NCBI GenBank assembly: GCA_032158125.1
Contig: JASKOT010000003.1
Coordinates: 916,465-980,464, forward strand
Direction of reading: 5' to 3'
Length of the DNA: 64,000 bases
Source of the DNA: Papiliotrema nemorosa
Lineage: Eukaryota > Basidiomycota > Tremellomycetes > Tremellales > Rhynchogastremaceae
The notes under the pieces are model-generated. The model was not told where the DNA came from. It made no database searches and saw only the letters and a list, made by a program, of their open reading frames with translations. Position numbers and translations under genes: made by a program. Each line of letters begins with the position of its first letter. The first letter of the stretch is position 1. This document shows positions 48 through 21,232 of this stretch, piece by piece.

Positions 48-3000
48 TTAGGCGAGATCGTGCGGGGATGGAGAGAAGTCTTGTATGGGGTCCTCTTGAC
101 TTTCAGACGGCTTTACCCTCTTAGGCGGTTCCTGCGACTCGAACTCTTCGACTGGGTCAGAAGCTGTAGAGGCGCCACGTCTTCGTTTCCTCACGGTGGT
201 ACTGTTTTGTGTGTCAGAGCTGGGCAGATCTCCGTCTCCAGCCGAATTGAGAGGAGCACGATTTGACGAGCGTTGAACAGCCATGGTCGAGCTTTCGGCA
301 ACAGAGGGCATTTGACCTGACGGTTTTCGAGTGTCGACAAACACGGGGGCAAAGAGGCGCGCGGATCGCTGTCCGGGCGGGTCGGGCGAGAGCGTCCGGA
401 CTCTCAACGGTCGGTCCTTCGGTGATGGCGCCGCAGCCGTCTCTTGCACGTCTGTCCTTGTTGTCACGACAAGCTTTGGAAATGACCCATCGACCGTCAT
501 CACCCCTCGGCTAGCTGCAGCGATTCTATCAATCTTTTTGTTTCGAGGGGCAAGATGTGTCACCTGACCCTTCTTTCGACAACTGGTCCAATACCACTGC
601 CATGCTTCCGCCATACTGGCCGGAATCCGGAAGACGTTTGGAATGAGTTGCTGAGTGACCAATTGCGCGTGTTCGTATCGAAGATCCGCTAGGTCATCTA
701 GAAGACCATTGAAAGTCTCGTCCTTGCTGAGAGACTCTGGGGGGTTCCTGTCTGCGGTGACCGCCTTGTAAGCCCTCAACGGTTCTTCGAGCAATTCGAA
801 TATTTTCGCGAGTCTCTGCTCGATCTTGTCCGCCGAAGCCTTTGAAGCTTGTTCAATCATTAGGCTAGTCACCATCAGCAATGACCACACTTTTAGACGC
901 ACTGCGCGTCCTCTTGTAGCTGTTTGAGGCTTCTCCTCTCGACGTTTTGCAGAAAGTCGTTGTCTATAGGCGGCTGGGCGATATCACCTTCTTCTATGAG
1001 TTCCAGGTGTTTGAATTCCATCGCAGTGAGCGGTTGTTGAGGTTGATTTTCGTTGTTTTCCGCTTTGGTCGAGTTTGACAACATAGTGGAAATCCTTCGA
1101 GAGCAGAATCTCAGGTGCTCGAAAATGAAATCACACTGGACGGAGCGAAGTCTGCGACGTTGCGCGGTCGTGAAGAGTTGTTTGTAGTTGCCGACAGCCG
1201 GGAAAAAGTGTCGTCCGATTTCGGATGGTCTGGTCCTCGGTGCTTCTCCCAGGGAATCGTATGCGGATGGTTGGAGCGTGAGCATCGGACAAGCGAACAG
1301 AGTGGACTCTAGACGAGCTTTGGCACACGCGGTACCCCACACCAACAAGTCGACGCTGTTTATGCACAGAATGGAATATACCTTCACGTCCAGCGCCTGC
1401 CTCATCACGTCGGCAGGCGGAGACCGATGCGACCGACCGATCCTTTGAGCGTAGGCTGCGGCGGACCAAGGCAGAGACTGCTGTCAGTAGAGATCGCGCT
1501 CAACCTGATAGACTCACGAGGTTGATGACCCGATTCATCCGCCACAGGTTGATCCCCACTCCTGCTACAGGAGTGCAGATTAGGATTCTAGTCTTCGCAG
1601 GACTACCTGGCCATGCGGGATTCGGCGTGGATGGATGATCCTCGTCGCTGTTGACCTCTTGGTACAATTTCAGGCGTTCCTTGGCGGTGGAACTGCCGCA
1701 ATACACCCTCACGGAAAGTCCCTGCGCCTTGAACGCCTTGTGCGTCAGCACAATGACAATTGTAGGTGTGATGGACTTTCCTCCATAATGGGCGGTATAC
1801 TGAGGAGGAGGTCAACATGTAGTACGACCTTGCACTGCTTCTCTTTCGGTAGCTCTCGATCGTTTTCGATCAACACCTTGGCCAACTCTGCAGCCATTCT
1901 GAGTTTGGTCGGAATCTGCGCGTGGAATGGTTCGCCGGCTTTGGGTGCCCTCTTGAAGTAAGAGTGCCAGGGGTGGATTGTGGCGCCTATGGCCGACGAA
2001 TAACATACTCCGTACCATTCGAGAGACCCCCTGCACGGGATCAGCGTCGGTATAGAGGACCAGGCCTCCACCTACTCTGCCACTTTTCGCTTCCTCTTCT
2101 TGTTCTCCTTTCTCAAATACTCCTTGACTACTTCTGTCTCTCTCACCGTCAACATGGCAGGGATGATGTACTCTGAAAGGTGACCGAGAGGGACAGCTGC
2201 TTGACCTGCCTTGTCCTTTGTTCCTCGGGTGCGCCTTATCATGTACTTGACAAAGCAAGACAGATAAGTCCCGATCGTCTGGTCGTACGCAGTGACAGTC
2301 TGTTTCGTACTTGCCAGCTCGTCACCCAGTCGAGCTGCGAGCGTGTCGGAGAATACTCCCTTTGCGGGATATGTTTTGCCGACCAACCCGACTTGGTCGA
2401 GACTTTTGAACCACTGTCTTGAGCTGCTGTACGCGACAGTCTTATCGGCCTTCTCTTGGATTGCCACGACCTCCTTGGCAGCAAGGTATTGCGGTATTGC
2501 GAGTCGATCATCCCCAGGCAACACACCTTCGCCCTCAGGCAAGCCAGCCACTCCGGCCAACACCGCAATGTCCAGAGGTGACTTGGTGATAGGCGTAGCC
2601 GTTTGCAGCACCACAAAGTTGGCTCGTCTGTTCATCGCGGCAGCAGCCATGGTGAATCCGCTCTCCGGAGACTTGAGAAAGTGTGCTTCGTCGTTTACCG
2701 CCACGTTGTACCGCATACCGAATAGGTCGACGTCGCGGACATCATCGACGTTTTCCGAATCACTCTCAGCGTCGCTGGCTTTCGCTCTACCTTTACCCCT
2801 CTTACGTCCACTCCGCTTCGCCTGCTTGTAAAGGGACCCGACTTGATTGTAGGAGATGATGACAACGTGTTTTGCCGGAGTGACTTCACTGTCGTGATTT
2901 TTGCTCCACTCGGCTTCGGCATTCTTGATAGACTTGACCGCCTTGGTTCGGTCTCTCTTGGTCTTTATGAGATGTATGGACAAGTCCGGGAAACAACGTG

Positions 3001-4944
3001 AAAGTTCCGACTGCCAGACTGTCGTCATGACTGCAGGCGCGATGATGATGGAGGGCAATGCGGGAGGCACGGGAGATTTCGTCTTGGCGAAAGGTCTCGG
3101 ACGATATGATTCATCCTCGTAAAGGAGGTCGATCTGAGTATCGTGGATAGTCGGGTGCGATCCGAATTTCTTGTTGATCTCATCCGGCGTGAGCCTCATA
3201 TATAGAGGAAAGGATTTGTTGTAATCTGATCGCAGCTTCTGCCTCTGCTTTTCGTCCATGTCTGGATCGCACTCGTCAGGCGGGGTGAGGTGATGATGCG
3301 TTGTCGATCGATGTGCGATTTCGGCTATAAAGGTTCCCGCTTGAATCGTTTTGCCAATCGATGTTTCGTCGGCTATTATTGCTGCAGGATATGCGTGCGG
3401 TCTGTAGGCTCTCGAAACCAGCTCGCTAACGCCCGTGACCTGGGTGTCTCGAAGGCTGAAAGACGGCATGTCAGGGTCATCGGGCGGAGACAGATAGGAC
3501 ATTTCGTCCTCATTGTATGACATGTACGCGAATGTCGCTGCGCGGGTCCAGCTCTTGAAGTGTTCCACTCCAATCTGTACGTCGGAATGATCATCGTCCA
3601 CTTCCTCTGCTCCGTCTGGCCGATGTCGTGCAAAGACGTCGTTTACTTCCTCCAGTGCTCCATCATCTCCGTCTGCCTTGTCTGCTGCCTCGACCTGTAT
3701 TTCTTCCGATCGCTCCTCTTGATCGCTCACTGCCTCAACTGCAGGACTTGTACCGGATGTCTGGCTGGATTCCAAGCCAGTCTGCTTCGATACTTGAAGG
3801 TTGATAATCGCAAGGTCCAAGGCTGTGCGCGCGGCGGTGATATCGTCGTCAACACCGAGGTGGGGAAACTGAATGCCGTAACACTCCTCCCAAGACTGCA
3901 GATGCTTTGTCATCTGCCTGATTTGCTCAAGTTGGGCTTCTATTCCCGCTGCCTGATCGTCGGCAGATTTCGGTTGAGAGGACTCTTGAGATGAATTGTT
4001 TTCTGCACGGCGTCAGTATTGAACACTTGCCGAGCAGGAAACACCAACCTGTGGAAAGGACAGTCAGTTTTCGATGCGCAGTATCAAATCTCTGTCTCGC
4101 TTCCTCCCCATTGGACTGCGCATCCTTGACTCTTTGATACAGCGAGGCTGAGATGAAAGCTGAATGGCATTTTCTCCAGTAATTTTGAATATCCGGGCGT
4201 ATTTGCGTATCGTAATCTAGCCAGTCGAGGTCTTCTCCCTCTTCCCACTCCCCGGTCACAACGGCAGCGGTGCCAAAGGTCGCCACGCAAATTTTGGCGC
4301 AGATCCTGGCAGGAATACGGATCTGAAAGGGATCGTCAGCAAAATTAAGTCCCTATCTGACTCATACGTACTGAGTTGGCAATGGCTGTGATGGGGGGGT
4401 CTTTGCCCTTTACTGTAATCCAGCTGCCTGCTACGCCATGATAATTGCCCTTTGGACCGTCCCGACATCGAACCAGATAGGCCGTCAAGAGATCCCACTC
4501 GGCCGCCTCGCATGCAGCATAGATGTTTGCCTTGACGAGTTCGTGCATTGGCGTTTCATACCTCATCAAGGACTTTCGAAAGGCACCGCTGGGTATACAG
4601 ATCTCAGCGAAAGGGAATATCCTAGCACCCTCTGGGGGGGTCTCGAGCGATCGGACCAAATCCTCCGGTAGGTTGTGAGCTGCAGACTGCGGCATTGATG
4701 GTTTGTTGTGTCCGTATACAAGACTCAGCATGGTTTTGACATGCTCGCTCTTGTAAGGGTTTGTCTCTAAACGAACAAACGCATCCACTGGCTGCTGCTT
4801 GGGGCTGTGCTTCTTTGTCTTTTTGTCGCTCTTCTTTTTCACCGGATTATGGACGGCACTCCCACCAGAGGTTGCCTTGCCCTTTCCTTTGCGGTTGCCA
4901 TCGGCGGGGCCATCCTTTTCCTTTGCCGGGCCTGTTGACGACAT
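48..4944 (-). CDS. SNF2-family helicase-like ATPase, copy 1
   Basis: This is a multi-exon gene of about 1,500 residues, with its start at 4944 (MSSTGPAKEKDG) and stop at 48. The N-terminal third is Lys/Ser-rich and then acidic. A SNF2 ATPase core follows. Motif I reads ADETSIGKTIQAG (near 3,360), which keeps GKT but replaces the usual DEMGLGKT. Motif Ib-like PSIIIAP comes next, and the Walker B/DEAH box is in VNDEAHFLKSP (near 2,690). The helicase C lobe has TPVAGVGINLWRMNRVI (near 1,540) and motif VI QRIGRSHRSP (near 1,430). The C-terminus is a charged tail with basic KRRR patches, which suggests a nuclear protein. Major exons fall near 4944-4376, 4320-4050, 4005-2072, 2070-1800, 1760-1510, 1470-910 and 880-48. 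The layout matches the downstream copy exon by exon. SNF2 proteins translocate on DNA to remodel chromatin or displace proteins. Which subfamily this belongs to is not clear, and no HIRAN, bromo, chromo or RING domain was seen. Confidence 0.8.
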
Positions 4945-5638
4945 GTTGACGTGCGCCTACCGAAAGAACAACACCTCGAGCCGGAACGAGTGTAAAGCGC
5001 GCTTGTGGTACCGAAGAATATGGTCACAACGTTGTGGGTAGACAGCGATTTGATGAGAGGGAATGAGGAAGAAGGGATCGTTGTACGTCGACCGTGGTGA
5101 GAAGAATGTCGTGTTGGCAGTGGAATGATCTGCTGCGTTTACTGAGCGAGGCCTAGATGAGATTCGGAAGGAAGGGAGAAAGCAGGTGGTGACCGAGAAG
5201 AAGAAGGGGAAGAAGAAGAGGAAGAGAGAGAGAGAGACAACGAGGTGGATGGACAAGGTTGAACGGTGAGGGTGACGTGTTTGATCTGGATGGCCCATAC
5301 CATCAAAGCGCACAGATCCCTAGCCTACGCCGATGCCTTTGGGCATGAACCGGTCAGTACAAAACGTCATACTCGAATCGAGTGCGCATGAGAGATCTCA
5401 CTGTAATGCGTTCGATATGGCGGTGAAATCATTGGAAGGCTCGACAGTGCTTTCACAGTTCGTGATGGCATTGCTCGTGGGGACTATTATCGAGAGGTGG
5501 TGTAATGCTTCATCCTGCTCAATCTCTCCTTGAAGAGGCTAGATGCCGTTCTTTTACAGTGTCAACATGAAAGCTAGAGGAGATCAGTACATGCCGTCTT
5601 CTGAGCGTCCGTATAGATCGGTTGCAGAAACCACTAGG
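4945..5638. promoter_or_regulatory. Upstream region of SNF2 copy 1 with a CT-rich tract
   Basis: No gene is visible here. Around 5,185-5,245 the plus strand is almost pure purine (GAAGAAGAAG and GAGAGAGAGA runs), so the strand of the SNF2 gene is CT-rich about 240-300 bp upstream of its ATG. CT tracts like this are common in basidiomycete promoters. No convincing TATA box was seen. Confidence 0.4.
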
Positions 5639-5648
5639 GTGACCACGA

Positions 5649-5679
5649 CCGGAAAGTAGGATGCCAAGTCGATTTGGTT
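5649..5679 (-). repeat. Bipartite 31-bp motif, copy 1 (minus)
   Basis: On the minus strand it reads AACCAAATCG, ten bases, then CTACTTTCCGG followed by T. It matches the consensus (TGTCRAATCG, N10, CTACTTKCCGG) with exact spacing. Confidence 0.75.
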
Positions 5680-5729
5680 TTGCCACCCAGGTAGCACAAG
5701 CATGGGAGCCCCGTCTTGAGTGACCACGA

Positions 5730-5760
5730 CCGGAAAGTAGGATGCCGAGTCGATTTGGTT
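5730..5760 (-). repeat. Bipartite 31-bp motif, copy 2 (minus)
   Basis: This copy matches copy 1 except for one base in the spacer. It lies in the second unit of the 81-bp-period duplication. Confidence 0.75.
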
Positions 5761-6271
5761 TTGCCACCCAGGTAAAACGGGTTTCGTCCTCTTCGACAAC
5801 TCCCCAGACCTCGATGGATCTATGTCGGCCCACGTCGTGACCTCACCCGGGACTTTATGGCGAGATCCGTCTGCAGTCCACGACACTTGTGCTTCTAGTG
5901 GTGCTTGCGGCACGCAATGGCTCGTTGACTCTTCCCGCGTCGTCTGAACAATGTTTAGCCTTATCGTCCCTCCCTCCTCATCAACATCTGGTGAAGACGA
6001 CTAGAATCGAATCTCGTGCGTTGTCTTTTACTGATATATCAGGTCTCGGCTCAAATCGCGCAACTTTCACTCAGCTCATTCTAAGTGCGACAGATGATTT
6101 CATGTGACGACGTGTGTGCCAATCTTGGTTCACACCAGTAAATGGCTACAAATCCAGGATCAGCCGCACCTCAAACCAGTCCTCACACGTCGATCATGAG
6201 AGTCGTCTCGTATCCCTTGTAGTCCCCGACAGTCGGCTTTGCGGATGCCTACCATTCTCAAGCGTTCCCCA

Positions 6272-6302
6272 TGCCAAATCGACGTGAGCTTCTACTTTCC
6301 GG
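6272..6302 (+). repeat. Bipartite 31-bp motif, copy 3
   Basis: It reads TGCCAAATCG, ten bases, then CTACTTTCCGG followed by T. It lies in the gap between the two SNF2 genes. Confidence 0.75.
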
Positions 6303-6577
6303 TTCGTGTTTGCTGTCAGCCGTCCTTCGACCTGCTTCGTAGCTGTGTGCCAAGGAAGAACGTTACGCATACAGGTAGCAAGCGGGTGAGGGCTAGAAGG
6401 AACGACACTGGATGGCTAAAGCACGGACCGGGCCCCGTATTGGGTCATGGATGACTGGTTAGCCGAGTGTTCATAGCAGAGATTGAGCCATATTGGCGGG
6501 ATCGTCAGAAGATGCATTGACAATATTCACGTTCATATCGTACAAGATGTCCACTCAAACTTCAGCCTCCCGCTCGG

Positions 6578-6608
6578 CGTCAAATCGTCAAAGACTTCTA
6601 GTTGCCGG
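6578..6608 (+). repeat. Bipartite 31-bp motif, copy 4
   Basis: It reads CGTCAAATCG, ten bases, then CTAGTTGCCGG. It lies about 250 bp beyond the stop of SNF2 copy 2. The rest of the 4,945-6,853 gap holds no gene. Confidence 0.75.
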
Positions 6609-6853
6609 CACGCATCTCTTGTGCTGACACACGAGGGCGTTTCGATTGATGTGATGACCCACCGAACCTGTACACAAGTATGACATTGGGGATAATTCTC
6701 TTTTGGTAGCAAGACATGCATCTCAGCCCGGAGAAGCCGTTTGTCGACCGCAGACGTGATGCCAGACGATGGAAAAGATGCATTTTCACCTAAAATCGAG
6801 CTATCCACATTCTCGCAAAGATCCTTCGTGTTCTCACATATCGGGACCAGCAC

Positions 6854-9800
6854 TCAATCGCTGGACAATTCGATGGGTTCCTCGGCAACCTGCAGTTTTT
6901 TCCCCTTTACTCTTGCCTTTGCTTTCTTATCAGCTTCCTGCGAAGAAAATTCTCCGATAACCTCCTCGAGCGAGTCCTGCTGCCGCGAAGGTCGAGAGAA
7001 TCCAGTGACAAACGGTTTACTCCGCGACTTGTATGTGATGATCTTCTTTGGTTTTGGGTCTGGAGAGGAGAATCGTGGCCTCTTCGAGATCGACTTTGAC
7101 GACCGCGTGTCATCAGCCATACGCTTGAGGACAGGAGCGTTCCGAGAATTCGGAGCGGCTGCTGATCGTCGTTGTAAGCCCATGGCATGTGCTGGTTGGC
7201 GAGAAGTTGATGTCGGTGGCAGTCGGGAGCTGGAAGCTTGAACTTGTTGGTGGGAACTAACGGTGGGTTGAGGTGCTCGGGAAGTGGATGCGAGCGGCTG
7301 ATCGGCCGTCCGTCTCGACTCAAGGATCGCCTGGTGCATCTCGCTGGGATCAAAGCCGTCGTGGTTGTCGTTCTCCGACGAGACTGACACCAGTGATCGA
7401 GGGGGAGGCGTTCGAGCTTTGCCCTTACCCTTGGAGATGGCGCTGGTCTGCTTGTTTGTCACTGGCGTCGAGTTGCGAACGGGGTCAAGGGAGGAACGAG
7501 ATGAAGGCGGAAATCGTTGAACCATACGGCTCATCACTACCGGCGACTTTGACCTAGGCTGTAATTGTGCACTCGACTTGGTAAAGTTCAATATTGGGAA
7601 AGCGCCAGTTCTAGTCACCACTCCCCCGGCCAACGCACCAAGGTGATCTCTAGGCAGCTGCACCAACTTTAGGTTTCGAACGTCTCCGTTTGATGACCTT
7701 GCGCTAATGTACCATTCCCAAACCCCCTGTGTTGTGGAGGGGACTGAAAAGCCGTTGGGGATCCGATTCGACTGGACAAGCTTGCGGTGCTCACGCGCGA
7801 CATCTGCGAGATCCTCTACATAGCCTCTGAAGTGTTCGTTCTCCCTCACAGTGTTTGTCGGGTATCGGCTGGTCGGCACCTTTCTCAAAAGTTGATCAAT
7901 TTGGGCGTAGATGGTCTTCAACCTCTTGACGATCGAATTTTCCAAGTTTTCCGAATGCTTCTTGAACAGAGCCCTATCGTGTCAGCGTTCATCTCAAGCC
8001 GCTAATAGTGCTGAAGACAATCAACTCACGCCGACTCGGCTTGAATCTGTGCAAGGGTTTTGAGCCTCGCGTCTTTTAGGAATGCTCTGTCAATGCGCAA
8101 GTTGGCCTGTTCGTCTCCCGACTCCAGCCACTCCAATTCCTCTAGAGTCCGAGTGGGCAGCGACGTATTCTCCACCGTTGCAGGTGGCTTCCTCTTTAGC
8201 CGCAGAAAGGTGTATATAGATTGAGAGCAGTATCGCAGATGCTCCAAAAGGTATTCGGCGCCGTTGTCCCGAAGTATACGTCGTTGTCCTCTCGTGAAAG
8301 CAGCTTTGAGGTCGTCGACTCGCGTCTTGAAGTACTTGCCGAATTTCGAGCTTGGATCGGAAAAGCCTACTTCCGTGTAGTCGACTTTGGTCAGTCCGAG
8401 GTCGTCGTTTTGGAAAAGAGCATTTTCGAGCGACGCCTTGAAGCACGCCGCCGCCCAGACTGCCATATCCACCGAGTTCAAGGCGACGATAGTGAAAACC
8501 TGCACTTTGAGGGGGGTCTTTTTGGAACCAGCCGGTGGGGACCTGTGAGATCGTCCTATCCGCTGTTGGTACGCCGCGTGTGACCAAGGAACGGACTGTG
8601 AGGCATCAGTCAACCATTTCGGAGGGACTCGACATCTGACCCACAAGATTGATGACAACATTCATACGCCATAGAGTGATCCCCAAGCCGGCGACTGGGG
8701 TGCAGATAAGCACTCGACAAGTCCTTGGGGCGTTTGGCCAATTCGGGTGACGAGTCGCGGGATGATCTTGGTCTCGATTTACAGTTCTGAAAAGGTCCTC
8801 TCTTTCCTTTTGAGAAGACTCGCCGGTAAATATCGCTGCAGACTGATTGATGGTCGCCAATGCCTGACGTCAGCACGGCTCTCGGTAGAACACATTCCAG
8901 CACACGAACCTGTAACAAAGGTTCCACGCTCGCAATGTGATCCACGTGAAATATGAATTTCGACTTCTGTTCTGTTCTTAAATCCTTCTCCTCTTCCATG
9001 ATCGTCTGGATCAACTCCATGGCCTTTTGGAGCTTTGTCGAGATTTTATCGTGAAAAGGTTCTCCCTGCTTCGGCAATCGCTTGTACAGGCTGTAGTATG
9101 GGTGGATCGTTGAATCGATCGCTGCCCCATACCCCGCGCCAAACCATCCCAATGATCCGCTGCTCATAAGCGAGTGCTCGACTGCATCGAGATGGCTGAT
9201 ACTCACACTTCGAGCTTCTTTTTACGCTCAGCATTTCTATCCCGTAGGCAAAGCCTTACCACCTCGGATTCTCGATGCGGCAAGATGATTGGTATGAGGA
9301 GCTCCGAGATTTGGCCTAGCTGCAGTGCCGGCTGACCCGCCTTGTCCAAGCTGCTTCGGGTCCGCCGGATCACATACTTGAGAAAATCTCCCAGGAACGC
9401 CGTGACGACTTGCGTGAAGCCAAACACTGTGGTGGTCAAGCCAGGCTGACCCCTCTGGACCTCCGCCGCCAGTGACGGTGACAAGATGCCCTTGGCCTTG
9501 TAGCCTTGAACTGCGGTACCGTCCGCCCTGACCCCACGAAACCAATCGCGGGAACTAATCCAATTTGCCTTTTTATCGGCCTTCTCCTGCGCCTTCACGA
9601 CGTCTCTCGCTGCTCGGTACTTGGCAGAGAATCCAACGCCGGCCAGGATGCCCCGACTTTCTCTGACCGCTGCCACTGCGCCTAATACACCAATGTCCAA
9701 GGGATTCTTCAAAATCGGCGTTGCCGTTTGAATTATGCGATACTTGGCCTGAGCACACATCGCCAGTGTGGTCTGGGTGAAATTGCCGTTGGGCTCCTTG

Positions 9801-12010
9801 AGGTAATGTGCTTCGTCACATATCGACACACAGTACTCGAGATCCATCAAAGAGCCCCCTCTGTATGTCCGACCATGCTTCCTGGCCGCCTTGATTGCAG
9901 TGTCTCTTTCTTTCCATATCGACGCGACTTGATTGTAGCTGGCCAAGACTAGATGTCGCCCTGGATATCGAGCGCCGCTCCCCAATCGCCCCTTCTGAAC
10001 GTTCTCTTTCCAGTACTTCTGATCGAAGGTGATGGTTTGGTACGCCCCATCACGATCTCTGCGAGCCTTGATTTGATGGATAATGAGTTTGGGAAAGACC
10101 GCTTTTAGTTCCCGAGACATGGCGTCCATTGTCACGGCCGGACCGATGATGATCGAGGGAAGGGCCGGGGGTATGGGTGAATTTGTCGAGCCAAAATTGT
10201 GCAACTTGAGAGTTGTCGAAGATTGCACACTGGCGATGGCCTGGTCAATGGCGGACGATTTCGCCATGGTGTTGACATTGGCTGGCGTGACTCGAGCATA
10301 AGGAGGAAAGGCTTGCGGATCAGGATCGTCGCCCGCTTGAATAACCCGTGATTGGAGTGCGGCCTTCTCTCCCCAATAAGCAAAAGTATGAATCGCTAGT
10401 CCTGCTTGTAGAGTCTTCCCCATACTCGTCTCGTCGCAGACGAAAGTAGCAGCTGGATGTGATGGATAGTGAGCACGCGAGCAGATTCCACCAACACCGA
10501 CGAGTTGTAGGTCCCGGAATCGCAAAAGCTCACCAGTTCCCGAAGGGGAATGCACATTGGGGATCGATTCGGGCTGGTATCCGAGATAGGCGAACTGGTC
10601 GCGACGAGACCAGGATCTAAAGGCTTCGACCCCGATTTGAACATCTTCCGTTTCGTCCTGGTCGACGGCGCCAGAAGGTCTATGTCGGTCGAAGAGTCCA
10701 GTCACGCTCTCAATTCCCCCCTCTGCTTCTTCTTCGTCGTCCTTGCCCACCTCTGCTTCTTGCTCCTCCAGCTCTCTTTCCGCTTCTTGACTCTGAGACT
10801 CTTCTCGAGCTACCTCATCCGACCTCTTCTCGCCAACGATAGGACTCTCTGCTCGGACCTGCTTCCTCGTGTCGGCAATCAATGCCCTGACATCGGCCTT
10901 GGCATCCGTCAACTCTACATCTTTCGGACCATTGGGATTGACGATCCTAAGATTTGCCTCCCAGTTGTGCAGTTGCTCGTTTAGGTTCTTGATCTTGATC
11001 GTACGCTCAGCGGTGGGCATTCTCCTTCGTCCAAACCCCGAGACTTGGCTCCGTGACGCGAGCTCTACAATACTCAGCGTGTCTGCAAGCAGGAGCGCCA
11101 ATTAACTTACCGTTCGACATTTTATTGAAAGTGTCCTTGGCGTTCGTAAGAGCCGTGGAAGCAGATCTTACTTTCGCCTCCAACACACCCGTAATGAATT
11201 TCGAGTGACAAGATTTCCAATATAGCTTAACATCATCTAGGATATCTCTCTCAAAATTCAGAGCATCCATCTTTGAATTAAAGTCGAATGACGATTTCAC
11301 CGCTTCCTTTCCAAACGCGGCAACACATACTTGTGCAGCAATAGAACCGGGAATAGTGATCTCGAACGTTAGCATTGTTTCGGTGGCTTCGTGGTCAAGG
11401 CTGCTAAACTTACTGTTCGTGCGATGGCGGTAGCATGCTTCGGACCCTCCAAGGCACAGGTCTTGCTCCACGAGTCGCTTTTCCCATTGTAACTTCCACC
11501 AACTCCTTGAGCCATCCGTGCACTGTATGCGTCAAAGATCTCCCAGCCCGAGACGCCACACGTCGTATGGATGAGGGAAACCATCAGGTTGTAATGAACA
11601 TCCGCCAACTGCTTCACTTTCTCCTTCTCCGGCCCAACGTAGAATGTGTCTTTGGAAGGAAAGCAATGAGCCGGTGATTCCGTCAATATCTTCAAGACGT
11701 CGTCGGGGATTGCGTGTATGATAGAGTCGTCCGTCGAGGTCTTATTGAAACCGAAAACCACGCTGATCAGGGCTTTGGTCTGATCAAGGGAATATGGATT
11801 GAGGTGGAGACGAGCGAAGTAGTCGACGTTGGTAGCTTTCCTCGAATGTGCGCCGGTTGAGATAGCTCCAGAGTTAGTTTTGATGGATTTGACACCCGCT
11901 CGTCTGCTCGACGTAGGAGCAGCGGCAACGGATGTACTGATCAAGGGTTGCAGGCGATGTTGGTTGCCCAAGGTCCCCCCCTTCCCTGGCGGCTTTTTGG
12001 AGCTAGACAT
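6854..12010 (-). CDS. SNF2-family helicase-like ATPase, copy 2
   Basis: This is a tandem paralogue of the gene at 48-4944, about 1,600 residues. The start MSSSKKPPGKGG at 12010 was chosen because copy 1 also begins with MSS, and the longer frame upstream is low-complexity. Landmarks are motif I CDETSMGKTLQAG (near 10,430), PSIIIGPAVTMDAMSREL, DEAH in ICDEAHYLKEP (near 9,815), TPVAGLGITLWRMNVVINLV (near 8,680) and motif VI QRIGRSHRSP (near 8,560). A Ser/Arg-rich tail ends in EEPIELSSD. Exons are near 12010-11412, 11370-11120, 11060-9205, 9200-8880, 8855-8640, 8590-8030 and 7970-6854. Both copies share the N-terminal block with an NPYS/NPYK motif and the post-helicase block QRR.L(R)..EHLR(Y/F)CS. 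Overall divergence is large, so the duplication is old although the genes remain adjacent and co-oriented. Confidence 0.8.
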
Positions 12011-12114
12011 GGGGGCAAAGGCCTTTTGATGCAAGTGGAATAAGAGCTCTGGAAGTCGGCCTAGCTTGCGTCCACCCGGCAAATGTCTCGATAAACCTCG
12101 ACTATGGTAGGGAA

Positions 12115-12150
12115 GATGTAGATGATGTTGATGATGTTGATGATGAGGAG
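12115..12150. repeat. GATGTT/GATGAT microsatellite
   Basis: An imperfect trinucleotide/hexanucleotide array (GATGATGTT repeated, then GATGAGGAGG) lies about 105-140 bp upstream of the SNF2 copy 2 ATG, probably in its 5' UTR or promoter. Confidence 0.7.
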
Positions 12151-12349
12151 GGTTGGGTTGAGGTAGAAAGATGAAAGTTGAGGGAACTTCGAGGCATCGA
12201 CCACCACATCCCAAAATCCTGCGCTATGACCCCAGCCATCAACACACGATTCCGACGTATTTACCACTCACAATCGTGTGACTCATCTCACCCATGTCCC
12301 TTGTGCATCAATCGCCGTCCAAAGAAAGATGTATAGGTGACAAATTTCT

Positions 12350-12380
12350 GGTCGAATCGCAGGGCCAGGCCACCTGCCGG
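12350..12380 (+). repeat. Bipartite 31-bp motif, copy 5
   Basis: It reads GGTCGAATCG, ten bases, then CCACCTGCCGG. The left half is perfect. The right half has two C-for-T changes. Confidence 0.6.
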
Positions 12381-12500
12381 ATCTCACTGTCAGTCTCGAC
12401 TATACGCGACTCAGCGGCTATTCTTACCGTCTGATTCAAGGCCGTAGGGCATGTATTCGAGGGCGAGCTATCTGCTGAGCTCGAGCTTGCCCTGTAAAAC

Positions 12501-12531
12501 CACCGAGGCAACCTAGCGACCTACTTGCCGG
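12501..12531 (+). repeat. Degenerate bipartite motif
   Basis: The right half CTACTTGCCGG is perfect. The left half at the expected spacing is only weakly similar. Confidence 0.35.
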
Positions 12532-12679
12532 CAGCCAGCTTCATTTCAGCCACCTTTGCTTCATCACCCAGAGGACCGGTCTCTGTCTACAATTTCGAAA
12601 GAGTCGACGCTTCTCCCTCCTACGCTGGACCTCGGAGTATCCAGAGTTGAGATGCTCAATGTTTCGGAAGCTCGACTCC

Positions 12680-12710
12680 CGTCAAACTGGCACATGGCTC
12701 TAGTTGCCGG
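12680..12710 (+). repeat. Bipartite 31-bp motif, copy 6
   Basis: It reads CGTCAAACTG, ten bases, then CTAGTTGCCGG followed by A. Confidence 0.7.
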
Positions 12711-13277
12711 AGATGCTTTCCAGCTCAATCGCTGTCGACCTCTCGACCCGACACGAGTTTTCGTACATTCTCCAGTTCCAAGAACTCGCATGGTATCATA
12801 GACCGGAAAAGACAGAGCGTGGCAAGGTCGAACTTCTGCAATTCTATACGTGATACGTTGCATAAGAGGAATGAATAGGATCGTAAAGCTGAAATCATCT
12901 GACTGTGATTAGTAACGCCGACGGGCAGTACTCACACGAGTTCCACCGTAGGCATTCAGCTCCAAGTCTGAGGGCTTCTCAATCACATCACTGCGATGCA
13001 AGCGATGGTGCGGTGAATGAACGTCAAGATGGAACGGAACAGCAAACGGGGAGTGGGAACAGTCTCGAGTGGCGCGTTCAATTTCGAGCCGACCTCGACT
13101 TTCACTTTATCCTTTCAAGACGAAGGCCCATCCTTGGACGAAGTTCCGATTCGACTCTCACAATCAACATCTACAAAGTGAGCAGTGTCATATAGAACCC
13201 CGAGATCGAGGTGGGGAGGCGCCCGACATGACGTGAACGTTGGGGGTCTCCCCAATTTGCTATTAGCTCCTGTCGTC

Positions 13278-13308
13278 TGTCGAACCGAGAGTCAAGTCTG
13301 GTTGCCGG
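13278..13308 (+). repeat. Bipartite 31-bp motif, copy 7
   Basis: It reads TGTCGAACCG, ten bases, then CTGGTTGCCGG followed by A. Copy 8 lies 40 bp further on. Confidence 0.65.
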
Positions 13309-13317
13309 AGGCGGACA

Positions 13318-13348
13318 CGTCAGAATGCACAGAGCCTCCGATTGCCGG
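13318..13348 (+). repeat. Bipartite 31-bp motif, copy 8
   Basis: It reads CGTCAGAATG, ten bases, then CCGATTGCCGG followed by A. It is more degenerate, but the spacing is exact. The remainder of 12,011-13,530 shows no gene. Confidence 0.5.
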
Positions 13349-13530
13349 ATCGTCCTAACCATTGACATATATCAGGTCATGATGTGCATGGGAATCTGCG
13401 TTTCGCAGCTATGGTATCAGATGCTATGGCTCATGACGATGGAGCTGGTAAAAACGTGGAAATGTCGGAAACTACACATGGGTCCAAAAGCCACCTATCC
13501 GGGTCCACATGGGTATAAGCGCAGCACCAC

Positions 13531-16500
13531 TCATCTTCGGAAAAAGCCATTCTCGTCAAACAGACCAGAAGGTATCATGTCTTGAGAAAAGTCGAGCATT
13601 TGATTCTCAAACATTTGAGGCAAGAAGGTCCACGGGACAGTCGAGATGGTCGCCGAGGTCTCTGCCAGCTCCTTTTTGGTCCCTACACCTTCGCCTCTTG
13701 ACCACCCCTGCTCTGCGAGCTTGATGCTCACATCTTTCCTTTGCTCGGCTCTCGTGTCAGACTTCAGCGCCGGTATCCAGCTGGCATCGATCTTGTCGGA
13801 ATGCGACATGACCACGTGCGATCGAGCGAGGTTTTGTCCTTTTGTGTCCTTCACATAGGCTCGTTTGAAGTTGCAGAACGGACAAATCCATCGCCCTTTG
13901 CGCGTATCAGTGACTAACGACTAACCGCTGAAAACTCACTATCTTGCAAATGGTGCTCCATCCATCGGTTTGCAGCGTGAAAAGGATGATGAAACTGAAT
14001 GACGTGCTTGTCCCAAGTCTTGGAACCAGGCGGGAAGACCTTTTCTTTCTGCTCCTTAGACGCAGTGGGATCCTGCGCACAAAGTTGGCATCTGCTCTTC
14101 CTGGAGCCGTCGACGAGTCCAATCACAGCCCTGTGCATCAACGGAGTTCGGTGATGGGTGATCCAGACTTACCGGAGGAAGGATATCTTGTCTTGAACCT
14201 TGTTATCTGTAGACCTCAGCGACTCGGGTTGCATTGATGCCTAGCTCAATCTTACCCTGGATGTCTGCCTGGCCGTCGCTACCCCTTGGCGCGTCTCTCT
14301 CCGTGCGACTGGAATGTACTTGAGGTTGTCCGGAGCCAGACTCGACCACCGGGAACGCGTTCCGAGCCGTGAGAACAGCTTGTGTGGCATCATTGACGGC
14401 CGCTTCATCCGCGGTGGACAGCCTGGCGTTCTTGGAGCGAAGCATAAAGTCTTGTAATTCCATCTCACCTCGGGCGACTTGCCCTTCGACGTCGTTGGCG
14501 TCGTCTTCTTCTCCTTGAAGGCCGTCGGTATTGGTCGATTTAGGGTTACCGGAAATGCCATTGCTGTCCTCTTCACCATCGACGATCAAATCAGGCTCGG
14601 TACCGTCATCTTCTTCGTCTTCGCCTTGCTCCTCCTCTTCCTCCTCATCCATGTCGTCGTCGGCAGAAGGCACATCAATGCTTGGCGCTGTTCCATCCAC
14701 CTGACCTTCCTCACCGGTAGACTGTTCGGTGGATAGCAGTGATTTCTCCCTCTCAACCAACCCTTTGACCAGCTCCTTTACCAGTTGAGATGCCCCTGCT
14801 TCGTCGTGTTCCGACCTGCGTTTCTCGACTAGTTCCCATTGTTCTTCCTCCATTGCCAAACGGGTCCTCTCATGCGCGTCGGCCCATATTGAAGCCTGAT
14901 ACTTGGTCTTTATGGTCGAGAGACGGTTGCTGAGTCTTGCAATGAAAATCACCAAATATGCTTGATTCAATGCTGTTTTTCGGGCGAGGCTCTTGTACTA
15001 CAAGATTGTCAACACGAGCAGAGGCTGCGCGGGCCAACTCACAGGTTCAATGGTCATCCAATCTGAGCTACCTGTTGCCAAACATCGTCGTAACAGCGCT
15101 CTCTTGTGTGCGAGATGTTGAAATTCGGGGCTGGCACATAAAGCATCCTTCAAAGTGACTTTATTGGCAAGGGCGGGATCGGCAACCCTATGCAGTGTGA
15201 GCTCTGATGGTTTTACAGCAGGAAGGGTCAACGAGACATACCTAGAGAAAGATAGGGGAGTGATGACCATTGCTTGCTGCTCCGCATGACCCAGAACAGC
15301 TTCAGTCACGTTGAGGTCCTTGGCACCCTGATCGTATTTTTGCTCCAAGACACCCGAATTGGCATCATGGCCCAAGAAGAACCGGACAAAGCGACGATCT
15401 ACGTGCTTGGAGGTGTTGGTCGCAAAACCCCTACGACACCCGTAAAATGTGTCCTCAAAAGCTGAGACTGGTCAGAACAATGCTGCGACGAGATGAACAT
15501 ACGTTGACCACTGGCTATACCGTATCGCCGCATAGCGTGTTTGAGAATATCATTAGCCGTTTTGGCGTTGAGTGGTTTGCTGGTGTCAAGACTGCTCCTC
15601 GTAGCTCTTTTCCAAAGTACGGGCTGATCCTTGAACTGCGGGTCGCAGGTGAATGCTCGGACACCTGATGCGATGATCGAGTCCAACGTCCGGTCCCCCA
15701 AAACCCCGTGTCGAAGAGCATGAGCAAATAGCCATACTCCGAGGTCCAAAATGTAGTTGCGATTAATCTGTGTAGAGCGGATATTAAAGGTCACCCTGTC
15801 TCTCTCAGATATCTCGGCTCGATGCAGAAGGCATGAACATACCGCAAGTCCTTGAAACCGTGATACCCTTTGAAATGTCGCAAGGTGACCGCAACATCGA
15901 ATCCCAGGAATTTGTTGTTGTTGTCGTAACAGACGTGAAACTTGATATCCTGGGTATCAGCATCTTCACAATCGACAGACATCAGGCTCACACTCCAGGT
16001 CAAATATTCATCTGGATACCCCAAGGTGCTCACCAATGACCCTGCCCTTGCTCCAGTGTAGAAGAACAGTAGGACGAGAACTGTGTTCTGAATGGCCTAG
16101 GTAGGTTAGCTTGGGTGAGGCCGGAGTGTAAAAGACATCGCGACGCACCAAATCGTAATTCTCACCTGCAAATTCGAATATGGTGTCGATCAACCCTCGG
16201 ATATCTGCAGGGTGCAACACCGTCTTTCGTCGCGTCGGATTGTGTAGGCCAAACTTGTGCACCAGCGCCTCGGCGTGCTGCAACTATCAGCTCTTGTCCA
16301 CATGGACTCTCGCGCCTGTTGGGTAGACTTGCCTTGCGTAATTGCTCCGACCCATGGATCCTCTCGGCCCGAGACATTGCAGGAAATGAAACTAGGTCCA
16401 GCTTGTAAAGTATCAGCGAGGCGGAGCTATATGCGAGAAGACTGCTTACCACCAAAGAGGTCATTTGGTAGAGGTCGAGCAGAGTGCTAGACGACATGTA

Positions 16501-16949
16501 TGTTGGTTTGCCCTTGTATAGGATCGGCTTGTTGTCCGCATCGAATTTTTGTGACTCCACGACGCGCAAAGTCATAAAGTCCTTCAGTCTGTCTGTATAG
16601 CTTAGCAATGTGGGAGAGCCGCAGTCTCCCCGGGTCTGGGACACTCACTAACCAGCGTCCATTTGTCCCTCTCCTTCCCGACCATATTCCCGCCTCCAAT
16701 AGGTCGGATCCCCTCTGAATGGTATCGGATGAAGCGATGGAACAAGGCTAGCAACCTCTTCTGCTTGAGGGGCGGTCCCGTAATCAGATCCTCGCTCCAC
16801 TGGATGAGCTCTTCTCTATTCTGAACAGTTTGAGCTTGATCGAGAGTCACACGCTTGCGCTTGACCGCTCTGCTGTTGTCTATTTCGTCTAGCTGATCGA
16901 TCAGCGCATCGAGACCGGCCCCGATGTTGATGCCCGGAACGAGATCCAT
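13531..16949 (-). CDS. DUF3435-type tyrosine recombinase with C2H2-like zinc fingers
   Basis: This is a multi-exon gene starting at MDLVPGINIGAG (16949) and ending at 13531. When the exons are joined at GT-AG sites, a tyrosine-recombinase core appears. Box I is FFYTGARAGSL with the catalytic Arg (near 16,055). A Lys-containing hairpin VTLRHFKGYHG follows (near 15,880). The box II equivalent is FYGCRRGFATNT (near 15,445), then FLGHDANSGVLEQKYDQ with the GH pair and candidate nucleophile Tyr (15,330-15,376). The RRG...GHD..SG...Y arrangement is that of DUF3435, the family of Starship captain recombinases in ascomycetes. Downstream lie a coiled, very acidic segment and two C2H2-like fingers (CQLC...HVIQFH and CPFC...HVVMSH), a combination often seen in DUF3435 proteins. 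One intron appears to use a GC donor (near 16,336). No frameshift was seen, so it may be intact. It could instead be a domesticated or Crypton-like recombinase. Confidence 0.75.
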
Positions 16950-17390
16950 GTTGGCGACAAAGGAGGGGGGAAGTGGAGAGGGGGAGGGGGGAGGGGAGGG
17001 GCTGTCAGTGTAGATCGGGACAGGTAGAAGGGTGGGGTGGGGTTCGGGAGGGAGTCGTGGGAATTGATAATCGCGGCTGTGTATGTCCAGCTGCACAAAA
17101 CGGCGGAGGGCTCAGGATCGATCAACGAACGGCAGCGAGTTGGACAAGAGCGTAATATCAGTCTGTGAAGTGGGATGAGCAATTCCGAGTGCCAGTGATA
17201 TGCTCTGCCTCGGAATGGGTGAGGACCATGAGAAAGAGTCTCACGTCGTCAACGGGTCCACCCCGATTTTCTCGCCTCGACGAGATATCTCCGCAGTCAC
17301 GTTTCATAACACCGAAGGATGGGCGTGTGTCCTTTCGGCCAATCGAGGTGCTGCTGAGGATAGCATATCCTAGAATTAGCATACTTCGTC
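16950..17390. promoter_or_regulatory. Divergent promoter with a G-rich tract
   Basis: This 440-bp gap separates the recombinase (minus) from the small gene at 17391 (plus). At 16,963-17,002 the plus strand has repeated G3-G6 runs (GGGGGGAAG, GAGGGGGAGG, GGGGAGGGG), immediately upstream of the recombinase ATG. On the coding strand this is a CT/CCC-rich leader, and the G-rich strand could fold as a quadruplex. Confidence 0.45.
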
Positions 17391-18266
17391 ATGAGGGCCA
17401 TGAATACCCTCAACAGAATCAACAATGATCGAGCGGCTGCCGCTTCGGAAGAAGATGCGGTCGAGACGTCCATGGCAAATCAAGTCGCTGCCGCCCCCAT
17501 TTTCTCCTATCTGCGAGCCAGGGGACCACGTAAGTCGACTGCTGATATGACGGCCAAATCGGGTGACACGAGTAGAGAACGTAAGCGGTGGGGAATTGCT
17601 GGAGCACCTCATGAACACCCACGATGCTCGGGCCAAGGTTGGTCTCAAGCCACATTCTTATATCTAGGGGTAGTACTCACCTTCTACATGTAGGACGCCG
17701 ACAATGACAATTTGAAAGCTTGGAGACCCAAGAAAGGGGGAGCTGGCGCGAACTATGGGGCGGCAGCCGTACGTCCATGAGAAGATATCCCTTTCCCGAT
17801 GCAATGTACTGACCGATAGGCAAAGGGGACAAGCGCCTTCAAGCAAGCCGACGATTATCTCGAGACTGTTCGGTGTGTCTTGAAGGGCCAAGGGTTACCT
17901 CAGGAAGGGGAATGGCCCAAAATTCAGCGTACCATGGCGCAAATCAGAGCCCGACTGGTCTTGCTGGCGACAAGCGTGGAGGAAGAGAGAGCCAAAGCGG
18001 ATGAAGAAGCAGAGGTAGCAGAAATCTGTGCAAGGCAAATGGCGGAGTTGGCGGGTACCGCTTTGGGACAGTATTTGGCGAGGAGTGTGAAGCGACGGGG
18101 TTAGTCGAGTTGTGCTCCAAAAGCGCAATGACCGAGATTTTGTGACTGATGAGCAGGTAATGATGGTGACTCTGATGGAGCGAGTGACTCCGAGGATGGC
18201 GAGAACAGCGAAGAGGCAAGCGAAGAAGAAGAGTCTACAGATGAAGATCAAGAGGATGACGCCTGA
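17391..18266 (+). CDS. Hypothetical protein with acidic tail
   Basis: No family was recognised. Joining five or six exons gives about 220 residues. It begins MRAMNTLNRINNDRAAA, continues through NVSGGELLEHLMNTHDARAK and a KAWRPKKGGAGANYGAAA segment, then a helical stretch (QADDYLETVRCVLKGQG and an Ala/Glu-rich coiled region with ARQMAELAGTALGQYL). It ends in an Asp/Glu/Ser tail (SDSEDGENSEEASEEEES). Introns have good GTAAGT or GTACGT donors and TAG/AG acceptors. The acidic C-terminus suggests binding to a basic partner such as histones, but this is inference. It is divergent from the recombinase, with 440 bp between the two ATGs. Confidence 0.6.
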
Positions 18267-18442
18267 GAAAGATAAAGGCTGAAGAATAGGACAGCAGTAA
18301 TCTGGTAGGATCGAAAAGACTCAACTGTGTTTTCCATTGGTCCTGTCCGTCTTGTCATCCAGGCCGCAACCTACTCGTAGTGTCCAGAATCATGCTTGCT
18401 GAAGGGGATATACCGGTAGCGGATTCCCGAAAGGTCTTGGAC

Positions 18443-18473
18443 TGTCAAACCGCTCTGAACTTCTACTTGCCGG
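18443..18473 (+). repeat. Bipartite 31-bp motif, copy 9
   Basis: It reads TGTCAAACCG, ten bases, then CTACTTGCCGG. It sits between two convergent genes (stops at 18266 and 18629). Nothing else is visible in that 360-bp gap. Confidence 0.7.
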
Positions 18474-18628
18474 GGCAAGAAAAGTGGGTTTCGTGTGGAG
18501 TACGCTTCAGGTCGTGGACCGGGGAAGCTCGCGTTGAGATCATTGCCAGCTGCATAGCCATAGAGTAAGTCAGTAAGTATCAATAATGTACGAGTAGTGT
18601 AAATCGTGTAGAGCTGTACGAGAAAGTT

Positions 18629-19777
18629 TTATTCCGCTTCCGCCGATGGCCCTTGCCCATGGTTGGCGGGTCCTCCAATTGTCCCATCATCGCTCTTGGG
18701 GAGTTCCCCACAAATCTTATCCACCTCTGAAACCAAAAAGTCGGAGACCTTGTCGTCAATGTGTCGATCTGTTTGGACGATCGCGGTGATAAGTACTCCG
18801 AGCATACGGGTGTTGGCGGCCGATGCAGCCGTGGCCGTTCGAATTGCGGCGGTTCGCTCCCTCTCGGCCCGGATCTTCTCCTCACCTTGTCCCAACGACA
18901 GACCCGCAATCAATCCTGGCATGAGTGATCCTACTTTGCATACAGGCCGCCAAGTACTCACCGGTCTGGGCTTGATTAGTCAAACCAGTCATGATACCTC
19001 GACCAGCCTTCCAGCTGGGGATCACCGCTTCCGTGGACGCCGTGAATCGATCCAGAGCAATCTTCTTTTTGCCTCCATCCTTCTGCGCTCGGATCAGCAA
19101 TGCACGCAGGGGTTTCTTCGGCCAGCTCGACTTACCTTGGCGGTCCTGGTCGGTCCTCCATTGTCCTCCTCCTCGCTCTCCTCATCCTCGTCCTCAACGA
19201 CAAAGCCATCAAGGTCGTTCTTCTTTCTCTTGTTCGCACCCTTTCCCTTCCCCTTGGCCGATGGTTTGGGTTTCGTGGTCCCCTTTTTTGGATTCTCTGG
19301 CTTTCCTGTATCCTTTCCTTTACCCTTCGACTTGGACGCCCCTCCTCCACCCATCGTAGTCGAGTCTTCCTCATCGGTTTCGTGGTCGTGCAACTGCTTG
19401 TCCATATCGCCGAGCTGATGGGCGGCCTGTTAAGATCAGTGGGAGTGTGGTCAAGCGATACAATGAGGGCGCTCACTCTGACTACGTCTGCATCTTGCTC
19501 ATCATCACCACCATCCCCTCCATCGTCTTGATCATCCTTGTCATTCTGCCCTTCTCCTTGATCCTTATCGGAGGGTCTCGACGCCGCGGAACCCTGTTGT
19601 CAGTTCGCCCTTGGAGACGTAGCATGAAATGGTAGAGGTTGGCAAATGGCAAGTATAGGCGGGACCTTTGCTCACCTTCTTCTCACTCGACTTCTTCGTC
19701 TTTGATAACACGGTCTTCTTGGGAGCGACTTTTGGAGCCGATGAGGTGACCTGCGCTAATCGCTCCTGCAACGACAT
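18629..19777 (-). CDS. Hypothetical Lys/Glu-rich protein
   Basis: The start is MSLQERLAQVTSSAPK at 19777 and the stop is at 18629, with about five exons and roughly 290 residues. The first half is low-complexity and charged, with Lys-rich patches such as KKTVLSKTKKSSEKK, Asp/Gly runs, then GKGKGANKRKKNDLDGFVVE followed by DEDEESEEED. The second half looks folded and helical (KKIALDRFTASTEAVIPSW, then GQGEEKIRAERERTAAIR and MLGVLITAIVQTDRHIDDKV). Basic nuclear-localisation-like clusters suggest a nuclear protein. No known domain was recognised. It is convergent with the gene at 17391. Confidence 0.55.
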
Positions 19778-20143
19778 GGTTTGGATTAAGAGTTGTGGGT
19801 AGTCTGGAGGTGAGAAAGATGACAAGAAGAATGATGAGGAGAAAGTTTGTCGCAGGGGCGTCAGGAGGTGCGGAAATCTGTTTCAGCATCATTGCTCGAG
19901 CTTCCCTCACCCGACGCGTGGTCGCTCCGAGCGACTCCTTCAAATACAATCGATACATTCTGGGGCCAGACTGATACAGTGACATCGGAAATACACAAGA
20001 ATTGAGCTTATGCAAAGAGTATGGTACGGCAGCGAGGTGGATGGTCGCGATCTGGGCATCGTACGGACTCTTATTTGGGCCATCCAGTCAGACGTCTTGG
20101 AACTGCTCCATTCGAGAGCATTCATATCGCTCAACCGCCAAGG
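19778..20143. other. Gap without a recognisable gene
   Basis: Only short spurious frames occur. This is the start of a 2.4-kb gene-free stretch (19,778-22,179) whose main content is the motif cluster that follows. Confidence 0.5.
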
Positions 20144-20174
20144 CGTCAAGAGGTCATGTCAGTCTAGTTGCCGG
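20144..20174 (+). repeat. Bipartite 31-bp motif, copy 10
   Basis: It reads CGTCAAGAGG, ten bases, then CTAGTTGCCGG followed by A. It is the first member of a dense cluster. Confidence 0.65.
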
Positions 20175-20263
20175 ATCGGGGACATCTCGGAGAAGAAGAC
20201 GTGTCTGACGCGTGAAAGCATGATCACTGGCGGCACAGGAGTACCAACATCTGTCCTCCACCG

Positions 20264-20294
20264 TGTCAAATGGTGATGGCGGTCTACTTTCCGG
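20264..20294 (+). repeat. Bipartite 31-bp motif, copy 11
   Basis: It reads TGTCAAATGG, ten bases, then CTACTTTCCGG followed by T. Confidence 0.75.
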
Positions 20295-20393
20295 TCCTGG
20301 TGGTGTCAATACTAATGATCCTGATACCACCCAGCCTACAAGAAACATCGTACTTGGTCTTCTCCGGACCGCCAAGGGGAAGGAACAAATGCA

Positions 20394-20424
20394 AGTCAAA
20401 TGATTGGGTTGCCCTACTTGCCGG
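20394..20424 (+). repeat. Bipartite 31-bp motif, copy 12
   Basis: It reads AGTCAAATGA, ten bases, then CTACTTGCCGG followed by A. Confidence 0.75.
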
Positions 20425-20460
20425 ACCGACCCGTGAAGACGAGACGTTAATCAATATGCA

Positions 20461-20488
20461 TGTCGCTTGATGGAGCTCTACTTGACGG
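20461..20488 (+). repeat. Degenerate bipartite motif
   Basis: TGTCGCTTGA and CTACTTGACGG are separated by seven rather than ten bases. This is probably a decayed copy. Confidence 0.45.
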
Positions 20489-20557
20489 GGTTGGTGTATA
20501 ATATGCAGAAAGAGTATTGATGTGTAAGGGCATGTATAGATGGCGGTTCAGAGACCA

Positions 20558-20588
20558 AGTCAAGTCGCCGTGTCATTCTACTTTCCGG
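20558..20588 (+). repeat. Bipartite 31-bp motif, copy 13
   Basis: It reads AGTCAAGTCG, ten bases, then CTACTTTCCGG followed by T. Confidence 0.75.
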
Positions 20589-20636
20589 TCGCGATTGGAC
20601 AGCTGTATGGTGTTTGCCACTGCACGCCGATGACCG

Positions 20637-20668
20637 CGTCGAAATCGTCGTGTCAATCTACTTTCCGG
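20637..20668 (+). repeat. Bipartite 31-bp motif, copy 14
   Basis: It reads CGTCGAAATCG (one extra A), ten bases, then CTACTTTCCGG followed by T. Confidence 0.7.
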
Positions 20669-20731
20669 TCCACATATTCCACCTCGTGATACCAAGACAT
20701 CTCGTAGGCTTTTGCCACGTGCTATCATACA

Positions 20732-20762
20732 TGTCGAATCGCGCAGCCATCCTGCTTGCCGG
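20732..20762 (+). repeat. Bipartite 31-bp motif, copy 15
   Basis: It reads TGTCGAATCG, ten bases, then CTGCTTGCCGG followed by T. Confidence 0.75.
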
Positions 20763-20796
20763 TCTCGAGGTGATACTCCGTCAAGCGATCAGTGCA

Positions 20797-20826
20797 TGTC
20801 AGCTGTGCATTGGAGCAAGTTGCCGG
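20797..20826 (+). repeat. Degenerate bipartite motif
   Basis: TGTCAGCTGT is followed after nine bases by AAGTTGCCGG, so this is a one-base-short decayed copy. Confidence 0.4.
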
Positions 20827-21201
20827 GGAGAGGGTTGGATGTGCATGGTGTAATGAGACCGCCTAGATTGGATCCAACTACATGATCAGAATACATCTTT
20901 CACCCCTTCCAAAAGCCCTACGGATGAGGTGTCAACGTCGAGGAGTGCGCCAGTCGCCCGAGGATGGCAATGTTGATGCAAGTAATGAAGGTATAGGGGG
21001 TTGTATCCTGATGTGACGTTGAGAGAATAGATGTCGAGGAGGAGGGGAGTGCTTCTTGTCGCTTTTTCGGGTGACCATTCTCAGCATGCTGTTCATATAC
21101 ATGAGAAGGGCTGGTAGCCGGGATGGAGATTGGAGGCTGCCGAGCGGTCAAGGGGCAGGCTACGAGATCATGACGGGTACGCTTTACATTACGCTGCTAC
21201 G

Positions 21202-21232
21202 TGTCGAATGACGCAATCGCTCTACTTGCCGG
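21202..21232 (+). repeat. Bipartite 31-bp motif, copy 16 (last)
   Basis: It reads TGTCGAATGA, ten bases, then CTACTTGCCGG. No further copy was found between here and 64,000. Confidence 0.75.

Follow-up and report, generated by a model that had tools for sequence, protein, structure and literature searches.

In Starships the captain recombinase sits close to one of the element's ends, and bacterial plasmids have iteron arrays. Cryptons have been described with short direct repeats (4 or 6 bp) at their ends (accessible text of PMC3212892), Starships of 41,942-605,797 bp have been reported in the basidiomycete Tremella fuciformis (accessible part of PMC13066641), and among hAT-type elements Kat1 of Kluyveromyces lactis needs subterminal repeats (available portion of PMC4763223). 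Here we describe a two-part 31-bp motif in the basidiomycete Papiliotrema nemorosa. It is repeated in 64,000 nucleotides of contig JASKOT010000003.1 (C3:916465-980464, ending at the contig end, position 980464; this whole stretch is 'the window', and positions without a contig name are counted from its first letter) and again in a second cluster on another contig, C6. The motif is genuine and very specific. It is repeated between genes at just two loci, both beside tyrosine-recombinase-like genes, which makes a protein landing site with a link to mobile DNA probable.

The window locus resembles Crypton/DUF3435 transposons in having a DUF3435-type tyrosine recombinase in a spliced gene, in being present in few copies and in having proposed ends without clear terminal repeats; unlike Cryptons, it has two SNF2 genes and the dispersed 31-bp motif, and no direct repeats were seen by eye at the ends where we place them. 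With Starships it shares a recombinase of the DUF3435 kind accompanied by further genes, but compared with those of Tremella the proposed element is smaller (∼23 kb) and without direct repeats found, and its recombinase, given these ends, would lie in mid-element, unlike a captain. As with hAT subterminal repeats, recognition sites would be repeated inside an element (in the Kat1 case, by the available text, they are used by the element's own enzyme); here, in contrast, the enzyme class is another one, and the site is two-part, 31 bp long and present in mid-region too. The C6 cluster is like iterons in that units resembling a binding site are repeated directly in tandem, close to genes of DNA-acting proteins, and unlike them in being chromosomal, with no replication protein seen. 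No described fungal motif of such form was found in the literature searched, which included the accessible parts of PMC3212892, PMC10799480 and PMC13066641 and left subscription papers mostly outside its scope.

We scanned with the consensus TGTCRAATCG-N10-CTASTTKCCGG, scored matches out of 21 and took 17/21 or more as a site; S at motif position 24 (C or G) widens the C of an earlier note on this DNA. The scan of the window gave 15 sites with a spacer of 10, listed here with one weak site.

5649..5679, minus strand: motif site, 18/21, in a 55-bp duplication shared with 5730
5730..5760, minus strand: motif site, 18/21
6272..6302, plus strand: motif site, 20/21
6578..6608, plus strand: motif site, 20/21
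12350..12380, plus strand: motif site, 18/21
12501..12531, plus strand: weak site, 15/21, right half perfect, left half poor, only 9.1 with the C6-trained matrix (below)
12680..12710, plus strand: motif site, 18/21
13278..13308, plus strand: motif site, 19/21
18443..18473, plus strand: motif site, 20/21
20144..20174, plus strand: motif site, 17/21
20264..20294, plus strand: motif site, 20/21
20394..20424, plus strand: motif site, 18/21
20558..20588, plus strand: motif site, 19/21
20638..20668, plus strand: motif site, 17/21, left half with one extra A (20637 in the earlier note)
20732..20762, plus strand: motif site, 20/21
21202..21232, plus strand: motif site, 19/21, the last of the cluster

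All 15 fall in 5649-21232. Sixteen good sites had been claimed; the one that failed, at 13318, scores 14/21, a level occurring throughout the window, and is noise. Three more had been called decayed (12501, 20461 and 20797), and these are indeed weak, with poor left halves; by eye, the latter two have right halves at 20478 (spacer 7) and 20816 (spacer 8). The earlier note's own consensus puts the same 15 sites at the top of the list, with 16-20/21 against at most 15 elsewhere in the window. From 21.3 to 64 kb, where the motif had been reported absent, no site reaches 16/21 and five score 15/21. One extra good site lies at C3:916213, ∼250 bases left of the window. The fixed ten-base spacer also holds: among spacers from 0 to 30 scanned at the same threshold, 9 and 11 gave one site each and any other gave 0-4, against 15 at 10.

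The earlier note held that the motif would fall if random sequence yielded as many hits or if hits occurred genome-wide at random frequency; neither was the case. Among 200 random sequences from a first-order Markov model we saw a mean of 0.08 sites with spacer 10 (maximum 2) for the window and of 0.035 (maximum 1) for 5.0-21.3 kb. The scan of the genome (19.19 Mb, 68 contigs) at three or fewer mismatches gave 25 matches, of which 13 were in C3:916213-937696, seven in C6:186988-187264 and five scattered; the two clusters thus take 20 of the 25, and the reversed pattern gave none. The five scattered matches are all single, each with an imperfect right half. Extended by its edge bases, the right half (YCTASTTKCCGGTC) matches exactly at seven places in the genome, all seven within the two clusters (reversed control, 3).

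As the consensus was derived from the window, the window statistics are partly circular; a matrix built from the C6 cluster only is free of this. We made such a matrix from the seven C6 units, with the spacer masked, and scanned C3:890000-980464. The 16 best scores (17.1-29.8 bits) fell on C3:916213 and the window's 15 sites. In 17th place came C3:916032 (minus strand, 15.8), just above the best score in the random control, 15.1 among only 10 sequences of equal length, and the next was 13.8. This recovery of the window cluster is an independent replication. The longest DNA word common to the C3 and C6 loci has 14 bases, and one such word is part of the motif. The exact core pattern had four lone matches in a prokaryote collection of 257 billion bases, taken as chance, and none in viral contigs.

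The two clusters differ in form. On C6 the seven units make a tandem array with a unit of 41 bp and a higher unit of 82 bp (96%), in which left and right half-sites alternate at a constant step of 20 or 21 bp; a degenerate further unit (16/21) lies at 186945, and the flanks of the array have repeats of 11-mers only between them. In the window no tandem array of the motif was found in 1-26000, and no phasing among separate sites was evident by eye. An alignment of 19 sites (15 from C3, with 5730 left out, and four of the seven C6 units) carries much information in the two half-sites and little in the spacer, and its flanks are close to background. The spacer had been described as varying freely; its middle is mostly weak, but G is favoured at position 15 (14/19) and Y at position 20 (17/19), because of which protein contact is likely to be continuous over about 31-33 bp. 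The half-site centres are 20.5 bp apart, and RNA folding of the sites is at background (mean z 0.1). These distances, the near-background flanks and folding and the constant C6 step fit the two-part protein-binding site put forward in the earlier note. The plus strand holds 14 of the 16 good C3 sites (the window's 15 and C3:916213), and none of the 16 overlaps a gene model (P = 4e-9 against random placement in the putative element), in agreement with the claim that all lie outside genes.

Two pairs of sites share copied sequence. Sites 5649 and 5730, 81 bp apart, are both within a 55-bp duplication at 98% and so are not independent, and 20558 and 20638, 80 bp apart, align at 85% over 39 bp; some sites were therefore multiplied by copying.

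The gene models of the window locus (with one to its left) are as follows. Exon borders of the recombinase were set by hand; the predictor had fused it with SNF2 copy b, and the split and the start at ∼12010 were set by eye.

13531..16949, minus strand: tyrosine-recombinase gene with introns, CxxC...H segments near the C-terminus
48..4944, minus strand: SNF2-family gene, copy a, approximate model with core open reading frame (ORF) 2072-3913
6854..12014, minus strand: SNF2-family gene, copy b, core ORF 9203-11101
17391..18266, plus strand: small gene, weakly predicted, no Pfam match
18629..19777, minus strand: gene of a small charged protein, no Pfam match
C3:915481-915972, minus strand: ORF, gene model left of the window

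The hand-spliced window recombinase matches PF11917 (DUF3435) at 27.6 bits, over the cut-off of 25.8, and PF00589 at 19.9 bits, below the cut-off of 27.1. On C6 the array lies between two recombinase-like genes, whose domain matches both fall short of the cut-off. It starts 0.3 kb from the first (1224 codons, C6:182918-186685; Phage_integrase, 6.4e-05), and 1.6 kb separate its end from the second (DUF3435, 0.031). The tyrosine-recombinase tetrad is R-H-R-Y (accessible text of PMC3212892); by eye, the catalytic R, H/RxxR, H and Y are present in the window recombinase and in the first C6 gene, and in both proteins Cys/His segments follow the catalytic part. In the first C6 gene there are, by eye, about four such segments, and its middle part is acidic. 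A six-frame PF00589 scan of the genome gave one match, below cut-off, to the first C6 gene beside the array; this is a lower bound, since the spliced window recombinase escapes it. A genome scan with PF11917 gave no match but found 0/14 controls either and is thus uninformative. Genome searches found no second copies of the three recombinase proteins; the second C6 recombinase had one weak further match (C38, E 0.37, 22%). Tyrosine recombinase is the only protein type that we noticed at both loci.

In protein searches, each of which scored only the ∼8,000 candidates sharing most words, the first C6 recombinase had three matches (one 100% identical and two in metagenomic assemblies, 48% and 37%), the window recombinase had none, and SNF2 copy b found only the window's own protein. 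Four solved-structure matches of the window recombinase, all RNA polymerase (E 0.026), were set aside as chance-like. The SNF2 copies are a tandem diverged pair (48-12014), 38% identical over the core, and were the only candidates scored in a genome search with SNF2. Against solved structures copy a had five matches (best 8.6e-05; helicase-like proteins and fft3) and copy b had none.

A tRNA gene at the junction is a hallmark of tRNA-targeting integrase elements in prokaryotes. Around the window cluster we found the following.

C3:914832-914869, plus strand: 5' half of a tRNA, left of the window, proposed left edge of an inserted element
window 21535-21562, plus strand: 3' half of a tRNA, proposed right edge
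C3:915032-915137, minus strand: whole intron-bearing tRNA gene, 52.6 bits

The two halves are 23 kb apart on the same strand, and their acceptor stems are complementary at 7/7 positions; joined, with the intervening bases removed, they fold as a cloverleaf. At three or fewer mismatches the 3' half is unique in the genome and the 5' half recurs only in the whole tRNA gene next to it; the anticodon of the latter is tta by ARAGORN, while its Rfam alignment is readable as TTT. With all 16 good C3 sites between them, the halves suggest that a tRNA gene was split by the insertion of a ∼23-kb recombinase element, which would span C3:914870 to about window 21.5 kb and include the window cluster. Targeting of tRNA genes is described for retrotransposons of Dictyostelium and yeast (available text of PMC5006619) and for Dada DNA transposons of fish (available text of PMC8869645); the accessible parts of the literature searched on tRNA-targeting mobile elements had no fungal one with a tyrosine recombinase. 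On 30 kb of C6, Rfam gave three matches, all below cut-off and none a tRNA; a tRNA-Pro with a 1475-base intron called there by ARAGORN at default settings was taken as false, and the hundreds of false tRNAs produced by loose settings were ignored.

Our best explanation, to which we give a probability of about 0.4, is a dedicated binder of the motif linked to the recombinase elements. The motif would be a ∼31-33 bp binding site for one such DNA-binding protein, or a fixed pair, reading two half-sites two helical turns apart on one DNA face, and would mark loci with tyrosine-recombinase genes in this organism. The binder may most simply be the recombinases' own zinc-finger-like tail, and could act on the element's promoters or in bringing parts of the element together. 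As possible binders the earlier note had named the recombinase or its zinc fingers, the SNF2 proteins and an unknown chromatin or silencing factor. The tie to the recombinase is strengthened by the recombinase-like genes at the C6 locus; the SNF2 part did not carry over, as no SNF2 was seen by eye among the C6 models, part of which were searched with Pfam. Overall, its interpretation is partly supported.

Several observations weigh against this explanation and against the element it draws on. The cloverleaf fold of the joined halves has no shuffled control beside it; Rfam calls neither half alone, the right half carries extra A residues, and inspection of the junctions by eye showed neither a target duplication nor any shared word of at least 5 bases. 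A 71-bp inverted repeat (96%) has one copy inside the proposed element (C3:915984-916054) and the other outside it (window 22035-22105); no further copy was found, and the left copy overlaps the motif-like sequence at C3:916032, 16/21, which is also the 17th hit of the C6-only matrix. The GC content of the proposed element equals that of its flanks, the recombinase (13.5-16.9 kb) is not at an edge, and the nearest motif site on its upstream side is 1.5 kb away. As to the binder, PF11917 is below cut-off on both C6 genes (E 0.048 and 0.031), and Pfam searches of the recombinases gave no confident zinc finger. The C3 and C6 recombinases do not align (best E 1.2, with 27 of 300 shuffles as good), so their sequences do not support recognition of the same 31 bp on C3 and C6 by a single protein family; for the finger regions the alignment is marginal, 23 of 500 shuffles doing as well.

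That the motif is common to two loci with different recombinases would be explained if a host silencing or transcription factor, or another host protein, read it and repressed or co-regulated the recombinase loci and nearby genes. In the gene models the nearest minus-strand start is 242 to 1634 bp from each site, which is always on its upstream side; the genes are arranged head to tail, however, which puts every gap upstream of some gene. Against a host binder, we found no third cluster: the other five matches are single with imperfect right halves, and a rough estimate expects about three by chance (2 hits in 200 random windows give 0.01 per window, multiplied by 300), though the reversed control gave 0. 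We consider a host binder possible, though somewhat unlikely. The 41/82-bp array on C6 and the duplicated pairs in the window (81 and 80 bp apart) could instead mean that the window sites are functionless remnants, spread by copying, of a similar 41-bp minisatellite. Such decay is doubtful, since conservation of the half-sites and of the spacer length contrasts with near-background flanks and a mostly near-background spacer, no tandem motif array is found in the first 26 kb, and the sites are spread over 21 kb, only between gene models.

The layout of the site, with a less conserved middle of 10 bp between two arms of 10-11 bp, also recalls core sites of a recombinase, which would make the copies many potential crossover points; by eye, 6/9 positions match between GTCAAATCG and GGCAAGTAG, the reverse complement of the right arm. 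We estimate that 6/9 is only a little above the best of several offsets by chance. The tRNA junctions have no site of 15/21 or more, and so many same-strand copies would presumably let the element delete itself, which makes core sites quite improbable. The strand bias (14/16) might point to a repeated transcript or a coding repeat rather than a DNA site, but RNA folding is at background, and the 41-bp period and a CTAG variant disrupt any common reading frame; we see almost no chance of this. Beyond the preferred explanation of a recombinase-linked binder lies a bolder one: a novel class of fungal elements with a tyrosine recombinase, which would insert into tRNA genes, bring their own SNF2 remodellers and carry between their genes a private two-part 31-bp address, read by the recombinase zinc fingers and common to lineages without detectable similarity. 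All parts of it holding together seems improbable.

To the right of the cluster (22180-31864) lie metabolic genes: models judged by eye to be cytochrome-b2-like and hydroxyacid-dehydrogenase-like, a Zn2Cys6 regulator and a DHDPS-family gene. Fungal_trans, Zn_clus and DUF3435 matches and intron-rich genes fit a fungal origin of the DNA. The window's last bases, at the contig end (63880-64000), consist of extended C and G runs, which may be an artefact of assembly.

With its restriction to two recombinase loci in a genome of 19 Mb, so long a motif offers a direct handle on the protein by which recombinase-borne elements are recognised in fungi; the 31-mer is a ready probe, and candidate proteins come with it. 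Should other strains confirm the split tRNA, it would represent a tRNA-targeting recombinase element in a fungus.

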